Made by a program: the position numbers and the translations under genes
In this document: positions 751-10,830 of the stretch, in pieces
Layout of the letters: each line of letters opens with the position of its first letter
Position numbering within the stretch: the first letter of the stretch is position 1
The notes under the pieces: generated by a model
The model's database searches: none
The model's input: the letters and a program-made list of their open reading frames with translations, nothing else
Told to the model about the DNA's origin: nothing
DNA from: Tunturibacter empetritectus
Lineage (GTDB): Bacteria; Acidobacteriota; Terriglobia; Terriglobales; Acidobacteriaceae
Assembly: GCF_040358985.1 (NCBI RefSeq)
Contig: NZ_CP132932.1
Location: forward strand, 3,534,001 to 3,598,000
DNA length: 64,000 nt
Reading direction: 5' to 3'

Positions 751-1950
751 ATGACTGAGTTTGTGATCAAGCTGGCGGATGAGCGTGGACGGGTGATGGA
801 GCAGAGCCATGCGGCGGCTACGGCGGAGGAGCTGAAGGCGCGGTTTACCCATGCGGGATACTTCGTCTATTCCGTGAAGGCGAAGAGCGCGCTGGGGGCT
901 AGCAAGAAGAAGGTGAAGCTGGAGACGTTTCTGGTCTTCAATCAACAGTTTCTGACGTTGATTAAGGCTGGGTTGCCGATTTTGGGGTCGCTGGAGCTGC
1001 TGGGCAAGAGGCAGAAGATTCCGCACTTTCGCGCGCAGCTGGAGGACGTGGCGGCGCGGGTGAAGACGGGGGAGTCGATCTCGCAGGCGTTTGAGGCGCA
1101 GGGCGGATTTCCGATTGTGTATACGACGACGCTGCTGGCGGGGGAGCGGTCGGGAAATCTGGAAGAGGTGTTGCAGAGGTTTCTGGACTTTCAGCGTGTG
1201 TCGCTGACGTTCCGCAAGAAGCTGAAGGCGAGTTTGATCTATCCGGCGCTGCTGGTAGTGATGGTGATTGGGTTGTTTATCTTTCTGATCACGTTTGTGG
1301 TGCCGCGGTTTGCGCAGCTCTATGACCAGCTGGGGACGAAGCTGCCGGCGCTGACTACGTTTCTGCTGGACCTGGGGCGGGAGGCGCAGGCTTACGGGAT
1401 TTATGTTGCGGTGGTGGTGGGGGCGGTTGGATTTTTGCTTTATCGGTGGTCGAAGACGGATGCTGGGGCGAGCCTGATCGATAAGATTCGGATCAAGCTG
1501 CCGGTGTTTGGCAGTGTATGGCTGAAGTATCAGGTGGGGTTGTTTTCGCGGACTCTGTCTACGCTGTTGACGGGTGGTTTGCCGTTGGTGCCTTCGCTTG
1601 AGACGGCGGCGAAGTCGATTGATTCGCGGCAGATTGCGAGTGCGGTTTACAAGTCGGTGGAGACGGTTCGCGAGGGCAAGGGCTTGTCGGTGAGCTTGCA
1701 GGCGACGAAGGTATTTCCGGAGCTGGCGATCGAGATGATCGAGGTGGGCGAGTCGACTGGTGCGCTGCCGCAGATGTTGAACTCGGTGGCGGAGTTCTTT
1801 GAGGAGGATGTGCAGACTAATCTGACGGCGGCGATGAGTCTGATTGAGCCGCTGATCTTGATCATGATGGGGCTGGTGGTGACGACGATTTTGATTGCGC
1901 TTTATCTGCCGATCTTCAGTTTGAGTGCGGGTGGTTCGGGCGGCCAGTAG
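751..1950 (+). CDS. Type II secretion/type IV pilus inner-membrane platform protein (GspF/PilC family)
   Basis: The protein has 399 residues, the usual length for GspF/PilC. It has the two-copy T2SSF architecture: cytoplasmic helical domains at about 60-160 and 255-365, and hydrophobic segments at about 163-188 (IYPALLVVMVIGLFIFLITF), 215-233 and 368-392. The family couples the assembly ATPase to extraction of pseudopilins from the inner membrane. The N-terminal segment (about 1-50) is a typical extension of these proteins. The likely partner ATPase lies at 4654, separated by three unrelated genes, and the PilM-P-like genes follow that. Family assignment is firm. Whether the machine makes a pilus or a pseudopilus is not decided by this gene. 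Confidence 0.93.
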   Translation: MTEFVIKLADERGRVMEQSHAAATAEELKARFTHAGYFVYSVKAKSALGASKKKVKLETFLVFNQQFLTLIKAGLPILGSLELLGKRQKIPHFRAQLEDVAARVKTGESISQAFEAQGGFPIVYTTTLLAGERSGNLEEVLQRFLDFQRVSLTFRKKLKASLIYPALLVVMVIGLFIFLITFVVPRFAQLYDQLGTKLPALTTFLLDLGREAQAYGIYVAVVVGAVGFLLYRWSKTDAGASLIDKIRIKLPVFGSVWLKYQVGLFSRTLSTLLTGGLPLVPSLETAAKSIDSRQIASAVYKSVETVREGKGLSVSLQATKVFPELAIEMIEVGESTGALPQMLNSVAEFFEEDVQTNLTAAMSLIEPLILIMMGLVVTTILIALYLPIFSLSAGGSGGQ

Positions 1951-4416: not shown

Positions 4417-4653
4417 AGAGTAGTCCTCCAAAAGACGTAGGTTGCTGAGCCCAAACGTAGTTGGGCGGAGGATACCATAAGAGGTGATTCTGCTGAATAA
4501 TAGAAGACTGGGCCATAGTTTTCGTCTTGAACGAGTCCTGGATTTTGGACGGAGTTTTCGTAGAAACGGTTCGCGTAGAAAAAGCCGTTTGAACACACTG
4601 TGAATGACGCGAAGGTGTGAGTGACGGTTAGTTACAAAGGGAGTCTTACGGAT

Positions 4654-6288
4654 ATGGCAATGGCACCGTTGGCAATACCGATCAATGAAGCGGGGATGGG
4701 CGAGGTGGAGCGGGCGCAGCTGTTGGCGCGGCGCTATCGTGCTGATTTCGTGGACCTGAAGAACTTCAAGATCTCGCATGAGCTGTTCAAGAGTGTGCCC
4801 GTGGACATGATGTTCCGGTACAACTTTGTGCCGCTGGAGCAGATGGAGGGCAAGCTCGCGATTGCGGTATCGGATCCTTCGAAGCTGATGGTGCTGGATG
4901 AGATCTCGGGTCTGCTGGGGCAGCGGCTGGTGACCCGGGTCGCAACCCTGAGCCAGATCACCGAACTGCTGAAGAAGACCGAGCAGAGCCAGCGTGTGCT
5001 GGATGAAGCCAGTGAGGGTCTGGCGTTCGATGTGTTGCACGGCGATGAGAACCAGGACTCGAATATCTCGATTGAGCGGCTGACCAGCGAGGACGATATC
5101 TCGCCGATTATCCGGCTGGTGGATACGACGATCTTTACGGCGCTGGAGCGGCGCGCCTCGGATATTCACCTCGAGACCTTCGATGATTCGCTGCTGGTGA
5201 AGTACCGCATCGATGGCGTACTGCAGCAGGCGATGGCTCCGATTGCGCGGGAGCATCATCAGACGATTCTTTCGCGTATCAAGGTTATGAGCGAGCTGGA
5301 TATTGCAGAGCGGCGCGTGCCGCAGGATGGACGTTTCCGCGTTCGTTATAAGGGCAGGCTGATCGACTTTCGTGTGTCGATTATGCCGACGGTGCATGGC
5401 GAGAATGCTGTGCTGCGTGTGCTCGATAAAGAGTCGATGTCGGAGAAGTTTAAGTCGCTGTCGCTGGATGTGGTGGGGTTTGCGGCGAAGGATCTTGAAC
5501 GGTTTCGGCGGTACATCAAAGAGCCGTATGGCATGGTGCTGGTGACGGGGCCGACGGGTTCGGGTAAGACGACGACTCTTTACGCGGCGTTGAACGAGAT
5601 CAAATCGGAAGAAGATAAGATCATCACGATTGAAGACCCGGTCGAGTATCAGATTCGGGGCATCACGCAGATTCCTGTGAATGAGAAGAAGGGGCTGACG
5701 TTTGCGCGAGGGTTGCGGTCGATCTTGCGGCATGACCCGGACAAGATTCTGGTCGGTGAGATTCGCGATGCGGAGACGGCGCAGATTGCCATCAACTCCG
5801 CGCTGACGGGACACCTTGTGTTTACAACGGTGCACGCGAATAACGTGGTCGATGTGCTGGGCAGGTTTTTGAACATGGGTGTTGAGCCTTACAACTTTGT
5901 TTCGGCGTTGAACTGCATTCTGGCGCAGCGGCTGGTGCGGCAGGTTTGTGAATTTTGCGTGAGAGACGTGCACTATAGCGATGCCGAACTGTTGGCGAGC
6001 GGTCTGGATCTGCACGAGTGGCGCGGGTTCAACTTCCGCGAGGGACCGGGTTGCATTGAGTGCGGCGGGACGGGGTATCGCGGTCGGTCGGCGATCCACG
6101 AACTGCTGGAGCTGGATGACGAGATTCGCGAGATGCTGTTGGCGAAGAAGCCGGGAAGCGAGATTCGCAAGAAGGCCAAGCAGAAAGGGATGGCTTTTCT
6201 AAGGGATTCGGCGCTGGAGAGAGTAAGGGACGGGATTACGACGCTGAAGGAGATCAACAAGGTTACGTTTATCGAGGCAGGACGGTAG
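4654..6288 (+). CDS. Type IV pilus/type II secretion assembly ATPase (PilB/GspE family)
   Basis: I prefer ATG 4654, with AAGGGAG 10 bases upstream, giving 544 residues. An in-frame GTG at 4621 would add 11 residues but has no well-spaced Shine-Dalgarno. The N-terminal GspE-N/MshEN domain spans about 15-130. The ATPase core has a Walker A (GPTGSGKTTTLY, about residue 300), an Asp-box region, a Walker B-like segment (KILVGEIRDAETA) and a His-box (GHLVFTTVHAN). A zinc tetracysteine (CEFC near 433, CIEC near 467) is typical of PilB/GspE and absent from PilT retraction ATPases. It should power pseudopilus or pilus extension from the cytoplasm with the GspF-like protein. It heads the cluster of pilMNO-like genes. 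Confidence 0.95.
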   Translation: MAMAPLAIPINEAGMGEVERAQLLARRYRADFVDLKNFKISHELFKSVPVDMMFRYNFVPLEQMEGKLAIAVSDPSKLMVLDEISGLLGQRLVTRVATLSQITELLKKTEQSQRVLDEASEGLAFDVLHGDENQDSNISIERLTSEDDISPIIRLVDTTIFTALERRASDIHLETFDDSLLVKYRIDGVLQQAMAPIAREHHQTILSRIKVMSELDIAERRVPQDGRFRVRYKGRLIDFRVSIMPTVHGENAVLRVLDKESMSEKFKSLSLDVVGFAAKDLERFRRYIKEPYGMVLVTGPTGSGKTTTLYAALNEIKSEEDKIITIEDPVEYQIRGITQIPVNEKKGLTFARGLRSILRHDPDKILVGEIRDAETAQIAINSALTGHLVFTTVHANNVVDVLGRFLNMGVEPYNFVSALNCILAQRLVRQVCEFCVRDVHYSDAELLASGLDLHEWRGFNFREGPGCIECGGTGYRGRSAIHELLELDDEIREMLLAKKPGSEIRKKAKQKGMAFLRDSALERVRDGITTLKEINKVTFIEAGR

Positions 6289-6400: not shown

Positions 6401-7525
6401 ATGGAAATTTTACCGAAGACATTGGGCACGCGGCCGCGGCTGGCGGTTGAGGTTCGCGCAGAGGGCGTTGTGGCGGCGCGGGCCGAGGATGCGGCGGCTC
6501 TGCTGACCTCTGTGGCACGAGTGGATCTGGCGAATGGTGTGGTTGCGCCGGGGCTGAAGGCGGGCAATCTCGTCGACAAAAGTTCGGTGACTGCTGCGGT
6601 GAAGAAGGCGCTCGATACGGTCTCGGGCCGTGGGGTGGAACGGGCGGAGCGAGGTGCGGGCCGGTTGCGCGATGTGACCCTGATTGTGCCGGATTCGGCG
6701 GTGCGGGTGCTGTTTCTGGACTTCGAGCAACTACCTACCAAGGCGGCCGAGGCGCTGCCGCTGGTGCGGTTTCGTTTGAAGAAGCTGCTGCCCTTCGATG
6801 CGGACGATGCGATGGTGAGCTACCAGGTGATGTCCAGCGAGAAGGGAACGATCCGGCTGCTGGCGGTTGCGATGCCGAAGGCCGTGCTTGAAGAGTATGA
6901 GGCGATGGTGCTGGCTGCGGGGTATCTGCCGGGCGCGGTGCTGCCGAGTACGCTGGCCGCGCTGGCTGGCCTCGATGAGACGCCGTCGCCGGTGCTGGTG
7001 GTCAATGCTGGGTTGGGTTCGGTGACGACGGCGATCGTGCAGGCGGGAGTTCTGCTGCTGCATCGGTCGGTGGATCTGGGCGCGGGGGCTGGTGGTCCGA
7101 TGGAGCTTGTTGGGAGTGCGTTACCGCTGGTGGACCGGGAGAGTTCGGTGCAGGAGTGGGCGCGGCAAGAGCCGCTGGGGCCGGAGGGATGGGAGCAATT
7201 TGATGCGCCGTCTGCGATGCCGCCTTCGGTGATGAACTCGGCTTTGGTGCGGGAGATTGAGGCCCAGGCGGCAGCGCGAGAGGTGGCGCAGGCGGTGAGT
7301 GTGGCGGCAGCTTACTTTGAGGATTCGTTGCAGTCGGCACCGGAGCAGCTGTTGATGGCGGGAACGCTGGATGCGGGGACGCTGACGACGGCGGCTGAAG
7401 AGAATGGGCTGGAGGGCCTTCGGGTGCGCGAGATGATGGACGCAGGAATGATGGAGGCGGGAGCGGTGACGGCGAGTGTGCCGCGAGGCTGGCTGGCCGG
7501 CGTCCGGGGAGCGCTGAAGAACTGA
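6401..7525 (+). CDS. PilM/GspL-like actin-fold pilus assembly protein
   Basis: This 374-residue protein has no membrane segment and an actin-like ATPase layout: strands RPRLAVEVRAEGVVAARAE at the N-terminus, DVTLIVPDSAVRVLFLDFEQLP near 90-110, a KLLPFD motif near 127, and PVLVVNAGLGSVTTAIVQAGVLLLHRSVDLG near 197-228. These correspond to the PilM family, a cytoplasmic partner of PilN in the alignment complex. It overlaps the pilN-like gene by one base, which supports co-translation. The nucleotide-binding residues are divergent from classical PilM, and GspL cytoplasmic domains share the fold. PilM versus GspL is decided mainly by the separate PilN-like gene downstream. Confidence 0.85.
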   Translation: MEILPKTLGTRPRLAVEVRAEGVVAARAEDAAALLTSVARVDLANGVVAPGLKAGNLVDKSSVTAAVKKALDTVSGRGVERAERGAGRLRDVTLIVPDSAVRVLFLDFEQLPTKAAEALPLVRFRLKKLLPFDADDAMVSYQVMSSEKGTIRLLAVAMPKAVLEEYEAMVLAAGYLPGAVLPSTLAALAGLDETPSPVLVVNAGLGSVTTAIVQAGVLLLHRSVDLGAGAGGPMELVGSALPLVDRESSVQEWARQEPLGPEGWEQFDAPSAMPPSVMNSALVREIEAQAAAREVAQAVSVAAAYFEDSLQSAPEQLLMAGTLDAGTLTTAAEENGLEGLRVREMMDAGMMEAGAVTASVPRGWLAGVRGALKN

Positions 7526-8280
7526 TGCGGATCTCTGTCAATCTTGCGAATCGACCGTTTATTGAACTGAGGCCGTTGTTTGCGAAGCTGCGGCTGGCGA
7601 TGGTGGTGCTGGCTCTGCTGGCGGTGGGGCTGGGGTTTGCGCTGCACTCGTTGAATGCGAAGGCGAAGGTGGCGCAGTCGCAGATGGATGCGCTGAAGGC
7701 GAAGACGCAGAGGTTCCAGCAGGAACGTCAGGCGAACGAGGCCAGGATGCGGCAGCCGCAAAATATGGCAGTCCTGGAGCGATCGCGATATCTGAATGAG
7801 ATATTTGCGGAGAAGAGCTTCAGCTGGACGGCCGTGATGATGGATCTTGAACGTGTGCTTCCGGTTGGGGTGCAGGTGACGAGCATCGATCCTGTGATTA
7901 CGAAGGAAGGCGATGTGAATATTCGGCTGCGGGTCAGTGGGGATCGCGACAAGGCAGTGCAGCTGGTGAGGAATCTGGAGACGTCGCAACGGTTCCTGTC
8001 GCCGAGGCTGGCGTCGGAGCAGGCGCAGACGCAGGAGGGAAATCGGAGTGCGGCGCAGGTGACGGTTCCGGGCGCGGTGCAGTTTGATGTGTTGAGCGGA
8101 TATAACCCGCTGCCGGAAAAATCAACGAAAGATGTTGCAGCTAAGGTCAAAGGCGGCACAGCAGAGAGTGGTTCGTCTGCGGAGGGCGTGAAGAAGAAGA
8201 GAGCTCTGAAGAGTGTTTCTCCTGCCGCATCTCCAAGGACCGGCGTGAAGGCTCCAACGCAGAAGGGAGCGCCACGATGA
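7525..8280 (+). CDS. PilN-like pilus assembly protein
   Basis: The 251-residue protein starts with MRISVNLANRPF, the PilN-type N-terminal motif that docks on PilM. One transmembrane helix follows at about 25-45, then a coiled coil (45-85) and a small ferredoxin-like periplasmic domain (about 95-160, WTAVMMDLERVLPVGVQVTSI). The last 60 residues are Lys/Ser/Gly-rich and probably disordered. The start overlaps the previous stop and the stop overlaps the next start by four bases, the signature of a tight operon. Function is inferred from family: an inner-membrane scaffold of the type IV pilus alignment complex. Confidence 0.87.
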   Translation: MRISVNLANRPFIELRPLFAKLRLAMVVLALLAVGLGFALHSLNAKAKVAQSQMDALKAKTQRFQQERQANEARMRQPQNMAVLERSRYLNEIFAEKSFSWTAVMMDLERVLPVGVQVTSIDPVITKEGDVNIRLRVSGDRDKAVQLVRNLETSQRFLSPRLASEQAQTQEGNRSAAQVTVPGAVQFDVLSGYNPLPEKSTKDVAAKVKGGTAESGSSAEGVKKKRALKSVSPAASPRTGVKAPTQKGAPR

Positions 8281-8975
8281 CAACGGTAGCCGAGAAGAAA
8301 CGGTCCGCAGTTGCGGCCAAGCAGTGGGCCGAAAAGGCAAGCCGTCTGGGCACGCTGAAGAACTTCCACATCGCGGGAGCGGTGGTGCTGGGGCTGGTGA
8401 ATCTATACCTGCTGGCACATATGGCGTTTGCGTGGAGAGCAGCGAACAGCGAAGATGCAGCGGCGCTTGCGGACCAGACTGTGCAGATGAAGACAGCTGA
8501 GATTGCGAAGCAGCCACTGGAAGGTTTGGACGAGAAGCTGGCGCAGGCCACCAAGGATGCAGACAAGTTCTACAAACAGCGCCTGCCGTTTGCGAACTCC
8601 GAGGTGGCCGGCGAGCTGGGTGCGTTGGCGAAGAAGCAAGGGGTGAAGCTAACGCGGGTACAGTATGCCTACTCTCCGGTGATGGATGGGACCGCCGGCG
8701 CACTGACCGAGGCGCGCATGGATGCAAGTTTGAGCGGAGACTACCGGCCGCTGGTGGTGTTTATCAACTCGCTGGAGCGGGACAAGATGTTCTTCCTGAT
8801 CACCGGGCTGACGCTGACCGGGCAGCAGAGCGGGACAGTGGGGCTGCGGCTGCGGCTGACGACGTATCTGCGGTCGCCGGTAGGTACCGAAGGCTCGGAG
8901 AAGATTTTGGCGGGTGCGGAGGAGAAGGCGGCTGACAGCGCCTCGGAAGGTACTGCTGCGGGAGGCCGGCGATGA
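8277..8975 (+). CDS. PilO/GspM-like pilus assembly protein
   Basis: This 232-residue protein has a short cytoplasmic N-terminus, one membrane helix at about 38-58 (AGAVVLGLVNLYLLAHMAFAW), a coiled-coil stretch (60-100) and a ferredoxin-like periplasmic domain (about 105-205). The domain includes FYKQRLPFANSEVAGELGAL and PLVVFINSLERDKMFFLI, which are typical of PilO. PilO pairs with PilN to link the cytoplasmic ATPase/PilM to the outer-membrane secretin. It overlaps both neighbours by four bases. Sequence conservation of the family is low, so the call rests on topology and position as much as on motifs. Confidence 0.85.
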   Translation: MTTVAEKKRSAVAAKQWAEKASRLGTLKNFHIAGAVVLGLVNLYLLAHMAFAWRAANSEDAAALADQTVQMKTAEIAKQPLEGLDEKLAQATKDADKFYKQRLPFANSEVAGELGALAKKQGVKLTRVQYAYSPVMDGTAGALTEARMDASLSGDYRPLVVFINSLERDKMFFLITGLTLTGQQSGTVGLRLRLTTYLRSPVGTEGSEKILAGAEEKAADSASEGTAAGGRR

Positions 8976-9604
8976 TGGGGCTGACTGCGGATCAACAGAA
9001 GAAGGGCGGTATCATCGGCGCGTTCGTGCTGGTTGCGGCAGGAATTTTGTACTACGAGCTGCGTGACGACAGCCCTGCGCCGGTCGCGCCGCCTGTTGTC
9101 GTGACGGCTCCTGCGAGATCTGCTCCTGCTGCGGGAGCGGTCGTCGCACTGCCGTCGGGAAACATCGCGGGAGCGGCGGCGAAGAAGCTTGGGACCACCT
9201 CGGCACAGCTTGATCCGACGCTGCGAATGGATGCGATGCTGGTGACTGAGTCGCTGGTGTACTCGGGCAGCGGACGAAATATCTTCTCGGCGAACTCGGC
9301 GCCGGTGGAGATTCCGAAGCCGATAGCGTCGGTGCGAGCGGTAAAGGCTCCGCCGCCGGGTCCACCGCCACCGCCTCCAGGGCCGCCACCGCCACCTCCA
9401 ATCGACTTGAAGTTCTTCGGCACAGCGACTGCCGCGAATGGAACCCGCCGGGCGTTTCTTCTGCATGGAGAGGATGTGTTCCTGGCCTCCGATGGCGACA
9501 TCGTGCAGCGGCGGTATAAGGTTGTGACGATCTCAGCCAACTCGGTAGTCGTTGAGGACATGGCGAATAACAACACGCAGACATTGCCACTGCTGGCGCG
9601 GTGA
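8972..9604 (+). CDS. PilP/GspC-like single-pass protein with polyproline hinge
   Basis: The 210-residue product has an N-terminal anchor (about 13-29), an Ala-rich linker, the motif RNIFSANSAPVEIPKP (about 107-122), and a run of Pro broken by single Gly residues at about 126-145. A beta-rich C-terminal domain follows (LKFFGTATAANGTRRAFLLHGEDVFLASDGD). RNIF(S/A) plus a small beta domain acting on a 'GEDV' strand is characteristic of PilP/GspC homology-region domains that contact the secretin. The position after pilO-like fits PilP. No secretin gene (pilQ/gspD) follows in this window. The polyproline tract is long enough to need EF-P for translation. Confidence 0.75.
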   Translation: MMGLTADQQKKGGIIGAFVLVAAGILYYELRDDSPAPVAPPVVVTAPARSAPAAGAVVALPSGNIAGAAAKKLGTTSAQLDPTLRMDAMLVTESLVYSGSGRNIFSANSAPVEIPKPIASVRAVKAPPPGPPPPPPGPPPPPPIDLKFFGTATAANGTRRAFLLHGEDVFLASDGDIVQRRYKVVTISANSVVVEDMANNNTQTLPLLAR

Positions 9605-9630: not shown

Positions 9631-10830
9631 ATGAAGAGACTTTGCTCCCGGTTTTTTCTCGAGGATCGTATCCCGCGCGATCTTGCGCAGGATGTTGTGT
9701 GCGCCGACGAGCGGCAAGGGGAACAGGGCTTTATGCTGGTGGGGCTGATCGTCGCGATCTTCATCATTCTGCTCGTGCTGAGTATTGCCGCTCCAAAGGC
9801 GGTGCAGGGGCTGCGCCGCGAGAAAGAGGTGGAGGCCGTGCATCGCGGAAACCAGTATGTGCGCGCGATCCAGCTCTACTATCGCAAGAACAACACGTAT
9901 CCCGGCACCATGGATGCGCTGGCCAAGGGCACTCCCGTAAAGTATTTGCGTCAGGAGTATGTAGACCCCTTTACGGGCAAGTCGGACTGGCGATTGATTC
10001 ACGTGGGCGAGGCGAAGACGACAGTGAAGGGATTCTTTGGCCAGCCGCTGACGGGCCTTGCGCCTGGGTTGGGCTCGGCGGCGGGACAGGCCTCGACGGG
10101 AGGTATTGGTGCAGGGGCCGCTGGTTCGAACTCCGCCTTTGGCTCGTCGAGTGGAAGCGCATTCGGTTCGTCCGGGTCGAGCGGGTCGAGCGCCTTCGGT
10201 GGCTCTTCCGGATCTACGTTAGGAGGCTCAAGCTCCGCCGGAGCGAGTTTGGGGAGTACGGCGGGAGCTGGAGCTTCTGGCTCAGGCGCGGGAGGGAGCA
10301 CGGCGACGGGAGCGACCACCGGGTCAACGGATAACTCAGGAACGGCCTCGACTGGGACGGGTGCTCCCAGCACACTGGGGTCGGCAGCCGGGATTGCCAG
10401 CCAGTCGTCCGGTGGGTTTTCGGGAGGCGGCGCGCCGTTCGTCGGCGTAGGCATTCCAAAAGAAGGGACCTCGATCAAGGTGTTGAATGAGCAGACATCG
10501 TACAACACGTGGGAGTTTATCTACGATCCCCGGATTGAACAGATGAAGGCGGCAGCGGGGCTGCTGGGCGGAGGGAATCAGGGTCTGGGATCTGCCGGTT
10601 CACTGAACTCCGGGGTTGGAGGTGCAGGGACGGGAACCTCAAGCTTCGGCTCGTCTGGTTCCTCGAGTTTCGGATCTTCTTCAGGTTCGGCGTTTGGCTC
10701 TTCTACTGGCGGCTCTTCTTCAGGCTCAAGCTTTGGATCGTCGTCGGGTTCGAGCTTCGGATCGTCTCCGACTTCGGGTACGCAAGGGAGTGGAACAACG
10801 ACGCCGACTACGCCACAACAGCCTCAGTAG
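9631..10830 (+). CDS. Type II secretion/pilus pseudopilin (GspG-like) with Ser/Gly-rich tail
   Basis: ATG 9631 has TGAGGT 7 bases upstream; an in-frame GTG at 9601 overlapping the previous stop would add 10 residues. After a 33-residue leader comes the prepilin site QG/FMLVGLIVAIFIILLVLSIAA, then a GspG-like region (REKEVEAVHRGNQYVRAIQLYYRKNNTYPGTMDAL, VDPFTGKSDWRLI). The +5 residue is Gly, not the near-invariant Glu. From about residue 140 the protein is low-complexity (repeats such as GSSSGSAFGSS), interrupted by a conserved-looking island near 275-310 (FVGVGIPKEGTSIKVLNEQTS). The usual GspG length is about 140, so this is more than twice as long. It closes the pilM-P-like operon. Confidence 0.8.
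   Translation: MKRLCSRFFLEDRIPRDLAQDVVCADERQGEQGFMLVGLIVAIFIILLVLSIAAPKAVQGLRREKEVEAVHRGNQYVRAIQLYYRKNNTYPGTMDALAKGTPVKYLRQEYVDPFTGKSDWRLIHVGEAKTTVKGFFGQPLTGLAPGLGSAAGQASTGGIGAGAAGSNSAFGSSSGSAFGSSGSSGSSAFGGSSGSTLGGSSSAGASLGSTAGAGASGSGAGGSTATGATTGSTDNSGTASTGTGAPSTLGSAAGIASQSSGGFSGGGAPFVGVGIPKEGTSIKVLNEQTSYNTWEFIYDPRIEQMKAAAGLLGGGNQGLGSAGSLNSGVGGAGTGTSSFGSSGSSSFGSSSGSAFGSSTGGSSSGSSFGSSSGSSFGSSPTSGTQGSGTTTPTTPQQPQ

Follow-up and report, generated by a model that had tools for sequence, protein, structure and literature searches.

How type IV filaments start is still debated, and the canonical starter requires four minor subunits. Type IV filament machines with one minor pilin that lacks glutamate at mature position 5 (Glu5) are already known. 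Between stacked subunits, the Glu5 of the lower one bridges to the N-terminal amine of the one above it, and tip complexes are capped by a subunit without Glu5 (PMC10191384, in extract). In GspK, an extra domain lies between the first two strands (PMC5207764, in extract). ComGG, which is encoded last in its operon and is without E5, is essential for assembly; it binds the major pilin and, of three minor pilins detected in sheared pili, is the most abundant (PMC8727766, in extract). Archaeal pilins are often without Glu5, and Glu5 mutants can enter mixed filaments, while type IV pilin Glu5 mutants cannot homopolymerise (PMC4471445).

Here we describe a Glu5-less pseudopilin, denoted X, from Tunturibacter empetritectus (Acidobacteriota; Acidobacteriaceae). 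Its gene lies in a window of 64,000 nucleotides, the whole stretch of DNA that was analysed (contig NZ_CP132932.1, positions 3,534,001 to 3,598,000). X shares with GspK/XcpX/PulK and with ComGG the absence of Glu5, its standing as the single such subunit of the cassette, and its last-encoded position where the genes stand together. It differs from GspK in having no T2SSK match, in an extra part which is disordered and Ser/Gly-rich instead of a helical domain, in a predicted fold that is GspG-like, and in having no recognised H, I or J partners. With GspG/PulG it shares the predicted fold and an N-terminal half homologous to two GspG-like pseudopilins of the same genome, GG1 and GG2, but it lacks Glu5, carries an insertion and a tail, and is not likely to be the major subunit.

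Gene X and its low-complexity segments

The features of X, in window coordinates, are as follows.

9631..10830, + strand: precursor of the Glu5-less pseudopilin X (ORF from ATG at 9631 to TAG at 10828-10830; homologues)
9631..9729, + strand: leader peptide of 33 aa, ending GEQG (start codon putative)
9730..10041, + strand: mature residues 1-104, the N-terminal half (AlphaFold model; hhalign to Glu5 paralogues)
9742..9744, + strand: codon GGG, mature residue 5, Gly and not Glu
10042..10425, + strand: residues 105-232, Ser/Gly/Ala/Thr-rich insertion, mostly pLDDT <50
10426..10563, + strand: residues 233-278, conserved island GAPFVGV..SI..NEQ..YNTWEFIYDPRIEQ (model and homologues)
10564..10827, + strand: residues 279-366, Ser/Gly-rich C-terminal tail, mostly pLDDT <50

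The initial annotation, made from the DNA letters, had described an intact prepilin site (QG/FMLVGLIVA) with Gly5, followed later in the protein by about 260 residues of Ser/Gly repeats split by an island, and the ORF translation agrees. The mature protein has 366 aa and begins FMLVGLIVA; an alternative, longer start is a GTG at 9601. From residue 105 to the C-terminus we counted 262 residues, 46 of them in the island. The other 216 (residues 105-232 and 279-366), which are rich in Ser, Gly, Ala and Thr, include no Lys, Arg or Glu, and they hold eight copies of FG[SG]S; 2000 shuffles of these residues gave 0.46 copies on average and never more than 4. Repeats at the DNA level are weak (two short TRF rows with a score of at least 40).

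X was compared with six relatives (L048-L053), using codons with a single difference among the alignable codons only. In the core pN was 0.01-0.03 and pS 0.34-0.59, in the insert 0.03-0.04 and 0.31-0.45, and in the C-terminal tail 0.01-0.09 and 0.33-0.63; in the island pN was likewise far below pS. Because this holds for every segment compared, the tail can be taken as real and in frame, and the Ser/Gly stretch is, by this codon comparison, in frame and under purifying selection. A frame error in the tail, which had been allowed for, is not borne out.

The end of the leader shows a separate peculiarity. Residue -3 of the prepilin site (site at window 9718-9729) is Glu in 75/79 and Asp in 4/79 named homologues (within L047-L126); an acidic residue here is an unusual leader end, and it is not kept throughout other families.

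Genes of the machine in Tunturibacter empetritectus

X is preceded in the window by genes for a motor and its platform.

751..1950, + strand: GspF/PilC platform protein
4621..6288, + strand: GspE/PilB assembly ATPase with MshEN domain
6401..7525, + strand: PilM/GspL-like (position only; no fitting family match)
7525..8280, + strand: PilN (PF05137 over cut-off)
8277..8975, + strand: PilO/GspM-like (T2SSM_b 18.0 bits, below cut-off)
8972..9604, + strand: GspC/PilP-like (position and by eye; no library match)

About 0.6 Mb from X, a secretin stands together with GG1 and GG2, both GspG-like pseudopilins with Glu5; the second, Glu5-containing pseudopilin that the annotation had proposed to look for has two candidates, beside the secretin. 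A PilA-like prepilin with Glu5 lies elsewhere in the genome, making three Glu5 prepilins besides X. A search of the genome with N_methyl gave only GG1, GG2, the PilA-like protein, X and one apparently spurious place. The 5.03 Mb genome has one prepilin peptidase match and one full-length GspE-type ATPase, in addition to a PilT and two further ATPase-family matches over cut-off.

Judged by Pfam, the parts of a type II secretion system (T2SS) that are present, at two loci, are GspE, GspF, secretin, a PilN/PilO-type platform and prepilin peptidase, with PilO below cut-off and the GspC-like protein recognised by position. The NCBIfam T2SS equivalog cut-offs were missed by GspE (537.3/630.25 bits), GspF (296.4/424) and GspD (130.4/351.35), and the PilB-, PilC- and PilQ-type NCBIfam cut-offs were likewise missed by GspE, GspF and the secretin. 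A PilT over the NCBIfam cut-off is found somewhere in the genome, and the T2SS hallmark of having no PilT retraction ATPase does not hold genome-wide. No GspK in the genome exceeded the cut-off (best 19.2 vs 24.2 bits), and X gave no Pfam match to T2SSK (PF03934) at E up to 1; on these two grounds membership of X in the GspK family by sequence was rejected.

The partner secretin (L045:6095-8728, C1 about 4.149-4.152 Mb) contains TPR repeats and, at its C-terminus, a Cohesin domain that scores over the Pfam cut-off. Among 10 other cassette secretins the Cohesin domain scores over cut-off in two, below it in two and is absent from six, and the annotation of two plasmid secretins names them cohesin domain proteins. 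No paper combining a cohesin domain, a secretin and type II secretion was found among the matches listed. The genome also encodes a second secretin (L046:2840-4750), near which the N_methyl search gave no prepilin.

Gene order, cassette and phylogeny

In the window's family the cluster is split, and X sits with the motor genes, not with GG1 and GG2. A GspC-like gene lies upstream of X in 71/80 named loci; three contigs end too soon and six loci look stand-alone. Copies of X for which no motor genes were matched in the fetched stretch (L076, L108, L110, L114, L115 and L117) have 382-497 aa in the mature form, vs 366 here. Two contigs titled Rhodanobacteraceae (L082, L087) carry an acidobacterial-type operon and are probably mis-binned metagenome contigs.

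Several loci from other families of Acidobacteriota present the genes as one run, GspE-PilM-PilN-PilO-GspC-secretin-GG1-GG2-X. A GG-type gene is found upstream of X, on the same strand and within 4 kb, in 24 of 33 such loci, with two or more in 18; none was seen within 4 kb in the other nine. X is the last gene in 24/24 Acidobacteriota loci having an upstream GG-type gene. Adjacency of GG and X is not constant, with gaps of up to 3.9 kb in the other-family loci.

The same secretin-GG1-GG2-X cassette occurs on plasmids and megaplasmids of Burkholderiales (Janthinobacterium, Eleftheria, Cupriavidus, Paraburkholderia and others), where the genes are titled 'Type II secretion system protein'. The order was seen in all 11 betaproteobacterial loci fetched (the record lists held 13 and 17), with X third of three, and GspE and GspF were present in 5/5 loci fetched with 9-kb flanks; at one locus a gspG gene comes after X. 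Betaproteobacterial X differs in having no low-complexity insertion, and with annotated precursors of 143-185 aa it is not clearly larger than GG1. Two of the Burkholderiales plasmids (L204, L213) carry PEP-CTERM genes at a distance of about 2 kb from the cassette. OxpG of Geobacter is a possible further relative.

A tree of 53 X, 27 GG1 and 26 GG2 sequences placed X on one side of a branch with support 100/100 and GG2 nested in GG1. Its columns are few (111) and its root is arbitrary, so the number of Glu5 losses is not readable from it; it holds 19 of the 79 named X, and its GG1 and GG2 rows were picked by a pattern requiring Glu5, which makes their Glu5 uninformative.

Residue 5 in homologues of X

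Glu and Asp are absent from position 5 in 130/130 X (79 named, 40 from other Acidobacteriota and 11 from Betaproteobacteria), a count made by aligning all X to profile A3 with no demand placed on residue 5; the X start sites feeding alignment A3 came from a pattern excluding Glu at this position, and the homologues themselves came from searches with profiles of Glu5-less sequences, the best match at each locus being counted as X, so that a Glu5-bearing close relative would be filed as GG. The named scan covered the best 80 of 383 relatives, and the pattern found a prepilin site in 79 of them, none with Glu5; the eightieth locus (L064), read by eye as GEQG/QLLLG, has Gly5 and stands outside the 130. 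The sample was enlarged by 40 more stretches (33 from 32 other families) and by the 11 betaproteobacterial plasmid or megaplasmid loci; locus L178 ends at a contig end. At 30 X loci from the window's own family, position 5 is Gly in 16, Ala in 10, Thr in three and Phe in one, and Glu in none. GG1/GG2-type ORFs neighbouring X have Glu5 in 51/51 checked, 50 through a pattern not requiring Glu and one by eye, where the pattern had misplaced the site and read Arg.

Matches to the X core were found in 146/150 genomes of the window's family at E <=1e-3 and in 135/150 at 1e-10, the weaker of which can be Glu5 paralogues and were mostly not read singly. Across the phylum a profile match in 333/396 genomes at E <=1e-8 is an upper bound for X. 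The initial annotation had considered that orthologues might have Glu5, making this an isolated mutation; no X aligned at the prepilin site does, and judged by its homologues the loss of Glu5 in X is no local mutation.

Predicted fold of X

The AlphaFold model of X has a mean pLDDT of 61 and a pTM of 0.46. Its N-terminal part consists of the alpha1 helix (residues 2-54), a helix at 61-66 and a first beta strand at 88-91, of which alpha1 and the strand are confident. Disorder is modelled across most of residues 110-232 and in the tail. The island, which had been called structured-looking, is modelled with four strands (237-241, 247-252, 255-257 and 262-264) and a helix (267-278), with block means of 75-85. 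A second orthologue, whose insertion is shorter, was modelled with the same arrangement, and its island is less confident (block means about 54-73).

Over its N-terminal half, X shows homology to GG1 and GG2 (hhalign probabilities 98.9 and 98.4). VIA-align, run on the seven chains ranked highest by Foldseek, matched residues 26-276 of the X model to residues 26-133 of PulG (1t92) with Z 8.4 and an rmsd of 2.3 over 90 aligned residues. Foldseek by itself gave one weak match, to PulG, at E 4.8. For the second orthologue the five best rows of 15 chains were all GspG structures (Z 7.3-7.9), vs 4.1-4.5 for type IV pilins. The Z values for both models are middling. A PDB sequence search with X gave five matches at E <=0.01, all pilins, and the two alignments shown span alpha1 and little more.

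In the models the island forms the second half of a GspG-type pilin domain and completes its beta sheet, and the low complexity is predicted to be an insertion between the first two strands (88-91 and 237-241) plus a C-terminal tail. This alters the initial picture of a complete GspG-like core followed by repeats. An island grafted from an unrelated domain was disfavoured, as both models put it in the pilin sheet. Between DPxT and the island lie 95-288 residues in 78 named X (median 132) and 24-244 in 26 X from other families (median 63), and because of this spread we regard the low complexity as a variable-length insertion and a tail.

An island profile built from 75 X was found in 112/119 X; six of the seven misses look similar by eye and one is cut short. 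Tests of whether the island is homologous to the C-terminus of GG1/GG2 gave mixed results. With a profile from Acidobacteriaceae only, the score was reached by 3/150 shuffles for GG1 and by 8/150 for GG2, whose alignment lay elsewhere; with a phylum-wide profile it was reached by 0/200 and 0/200 shuffles, where GG2 aligned at its C-terminus and the GG1 match had only 6 columns.

X as a candidate initiating pseudopilin

We read X, with a probability of roughly 0.6, as the initiating or tip pseudopilin of a type II secretion-like machine reduced to three pseudopilins, GG1 and GG2 with Glu5 and X without. This reading is drawn from the lack of Glu5 in every case, the last position of the gene where the genes stand together, and, in Acidobacteriota, the size and insertion: mature X has 366 aa in the window genome, vs 145 and 123 aa in its partner pseudopilins, and its disordered insertion occupies the place where GspK has its extra domain. 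Also in its favour are the Glu5 of the 51 neighbouring GG1/GG2-type ORFs, the branch that sets X apart in the tree, the wide occurrence of the island profile, the PulG-like models, and the genome's lack of any GspK over the cut-off beside three Glu5 prepilins. X is best read as doing the job of GspK with a GspG fold. The tip or GspK-like role suggested at the outset is thus favoured by comparison, with a single Glu5-less subunit alongside two pseudopilins that have Glu5, and additional sequence within the pilin domain, but X is not of the GspK family by sequence, and the accompanying idea of a secreted, surface-displayed subunit is not supported.

From these comparisons we infer a tip position, an order of assembly and a brush role for X. 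It would be processed by the single prepilin peptidase of the genome. In the membrane a Glu5-bearing neighbour would join it, the neighbour's Glu5 meeting the N-terminal amine of X; X, without Glu5, would hold no subunit above and could only be first. GspE and GspF would then add GG2 and/or GG1 beneath it. On top of the filament, the low-complexity insertion may form a flexible, uncharged brush facing the secretin, and its job (soft plug, substrate contact or length control) is a guess. As a counterpoint, the absence of Glu5 does not bar incorporation, and a strictly tip-only location of X is uncertain because ComGG also binds the major pilin and occurs in sheared pili. Other points that weigh against the reading are the GspG fold of X in place of a GspK domain, its separation from GG1 and GG2 in the window's family, the insertion-free X of Betaproteobacteria, the nine loci with no GG gene seen within 4 kb upstream, the gaps at others, the search with Glu5-less profiles, and the middling structure matches.

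It is unlikely, though worth weighing, that X is a lateral or even major subunit with a GspG fold, co-polymerising with GG1 and GG2 along the filament and giving it a Ser/Gly coat. The PulG-like predicted fold would suit such a subunit, as would its place adjoining PilN/PilO/GspC-type genes in the window's family and the building of Glu5 mutants into mixed filaments (PMC4471445). However, GG2, with Glu5, is far closer to GspG (TIGR01710: GG2 62.1 bits; X 19.0 bits, where the cut-off of 88.85 is not reached), homopolymerisation is closed to type IV pilin Glu5 mutants (PMC4471445), and the segment between DPxT and the island, which reaches 288 residues, would probably make a packed filament too crowded.

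It is quite unlikely that X stays outside the filament as an inner-membrane assembly or regulatory factor, with alpha1 on the platform and its disordered parts toward the secretin or substrates. Recruitment by the assembly platform reportedly requires the pseudopilin E5, to go by a title of Nivaskumar et al. from 2016, and X may for that reason not be recruited as a subunit; its tight linkage to platform genes points the same way. An anchor, however, needs less than X has kept, namely the prepilin site, a hydrophobic alpha1 and a complete pilin domain. An isolated mutation with a frameshifted or spurious low-complexity tail has next to no probability and was rejected, given residue 5 in the 130 homologues and the comparison with six relatives, where pN is well under pS in both insert and tail.

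Significance

No paper describing the secretin-GG1-GG2-X cassette or the X protein was found among the matches listed, which covered few subscription journals. Minor pilins were left out of the trees of Denise et al. (2019), and 'acidobact' does not occur in the main text as extracted; also in extract, few of their systems stay 'generic' and few novel families may remain, which speaks against a new class (PMC6668835). The cassette may nevertheless merit a separate class. Starting from X as an initiating pseudopilin, we suggest, tentatively and at less than even odds, that secretin-GG1-GG2-X is the signature of a so far unnamed class of type IV filament machines common to Acidobacteriota and Burkholderiales, whose filament would be started by a Glu5-less relative of GspG instead of GspIJK. 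In Acidobacteriota the tip would have acquired a long Ser/Gly insertion, uncharged and disordered, at the site of the rigid domain of GspK, giving a soft tip that plugs or opens a secretin which itself sometimes has a C-terminal cohesin domain.

Two Glu5 pseudopilins and one without Glu5 would be a minimal setting for the rule that no Glu5 means first subunit. The same cassette is present in easily handled betaproteobacteria (Janthinobacterium, Cupriavidus metallidurans), where the rule can be tested, and since some X naturally have the insertion and others do not, the role of tip bulk could be examined separately.
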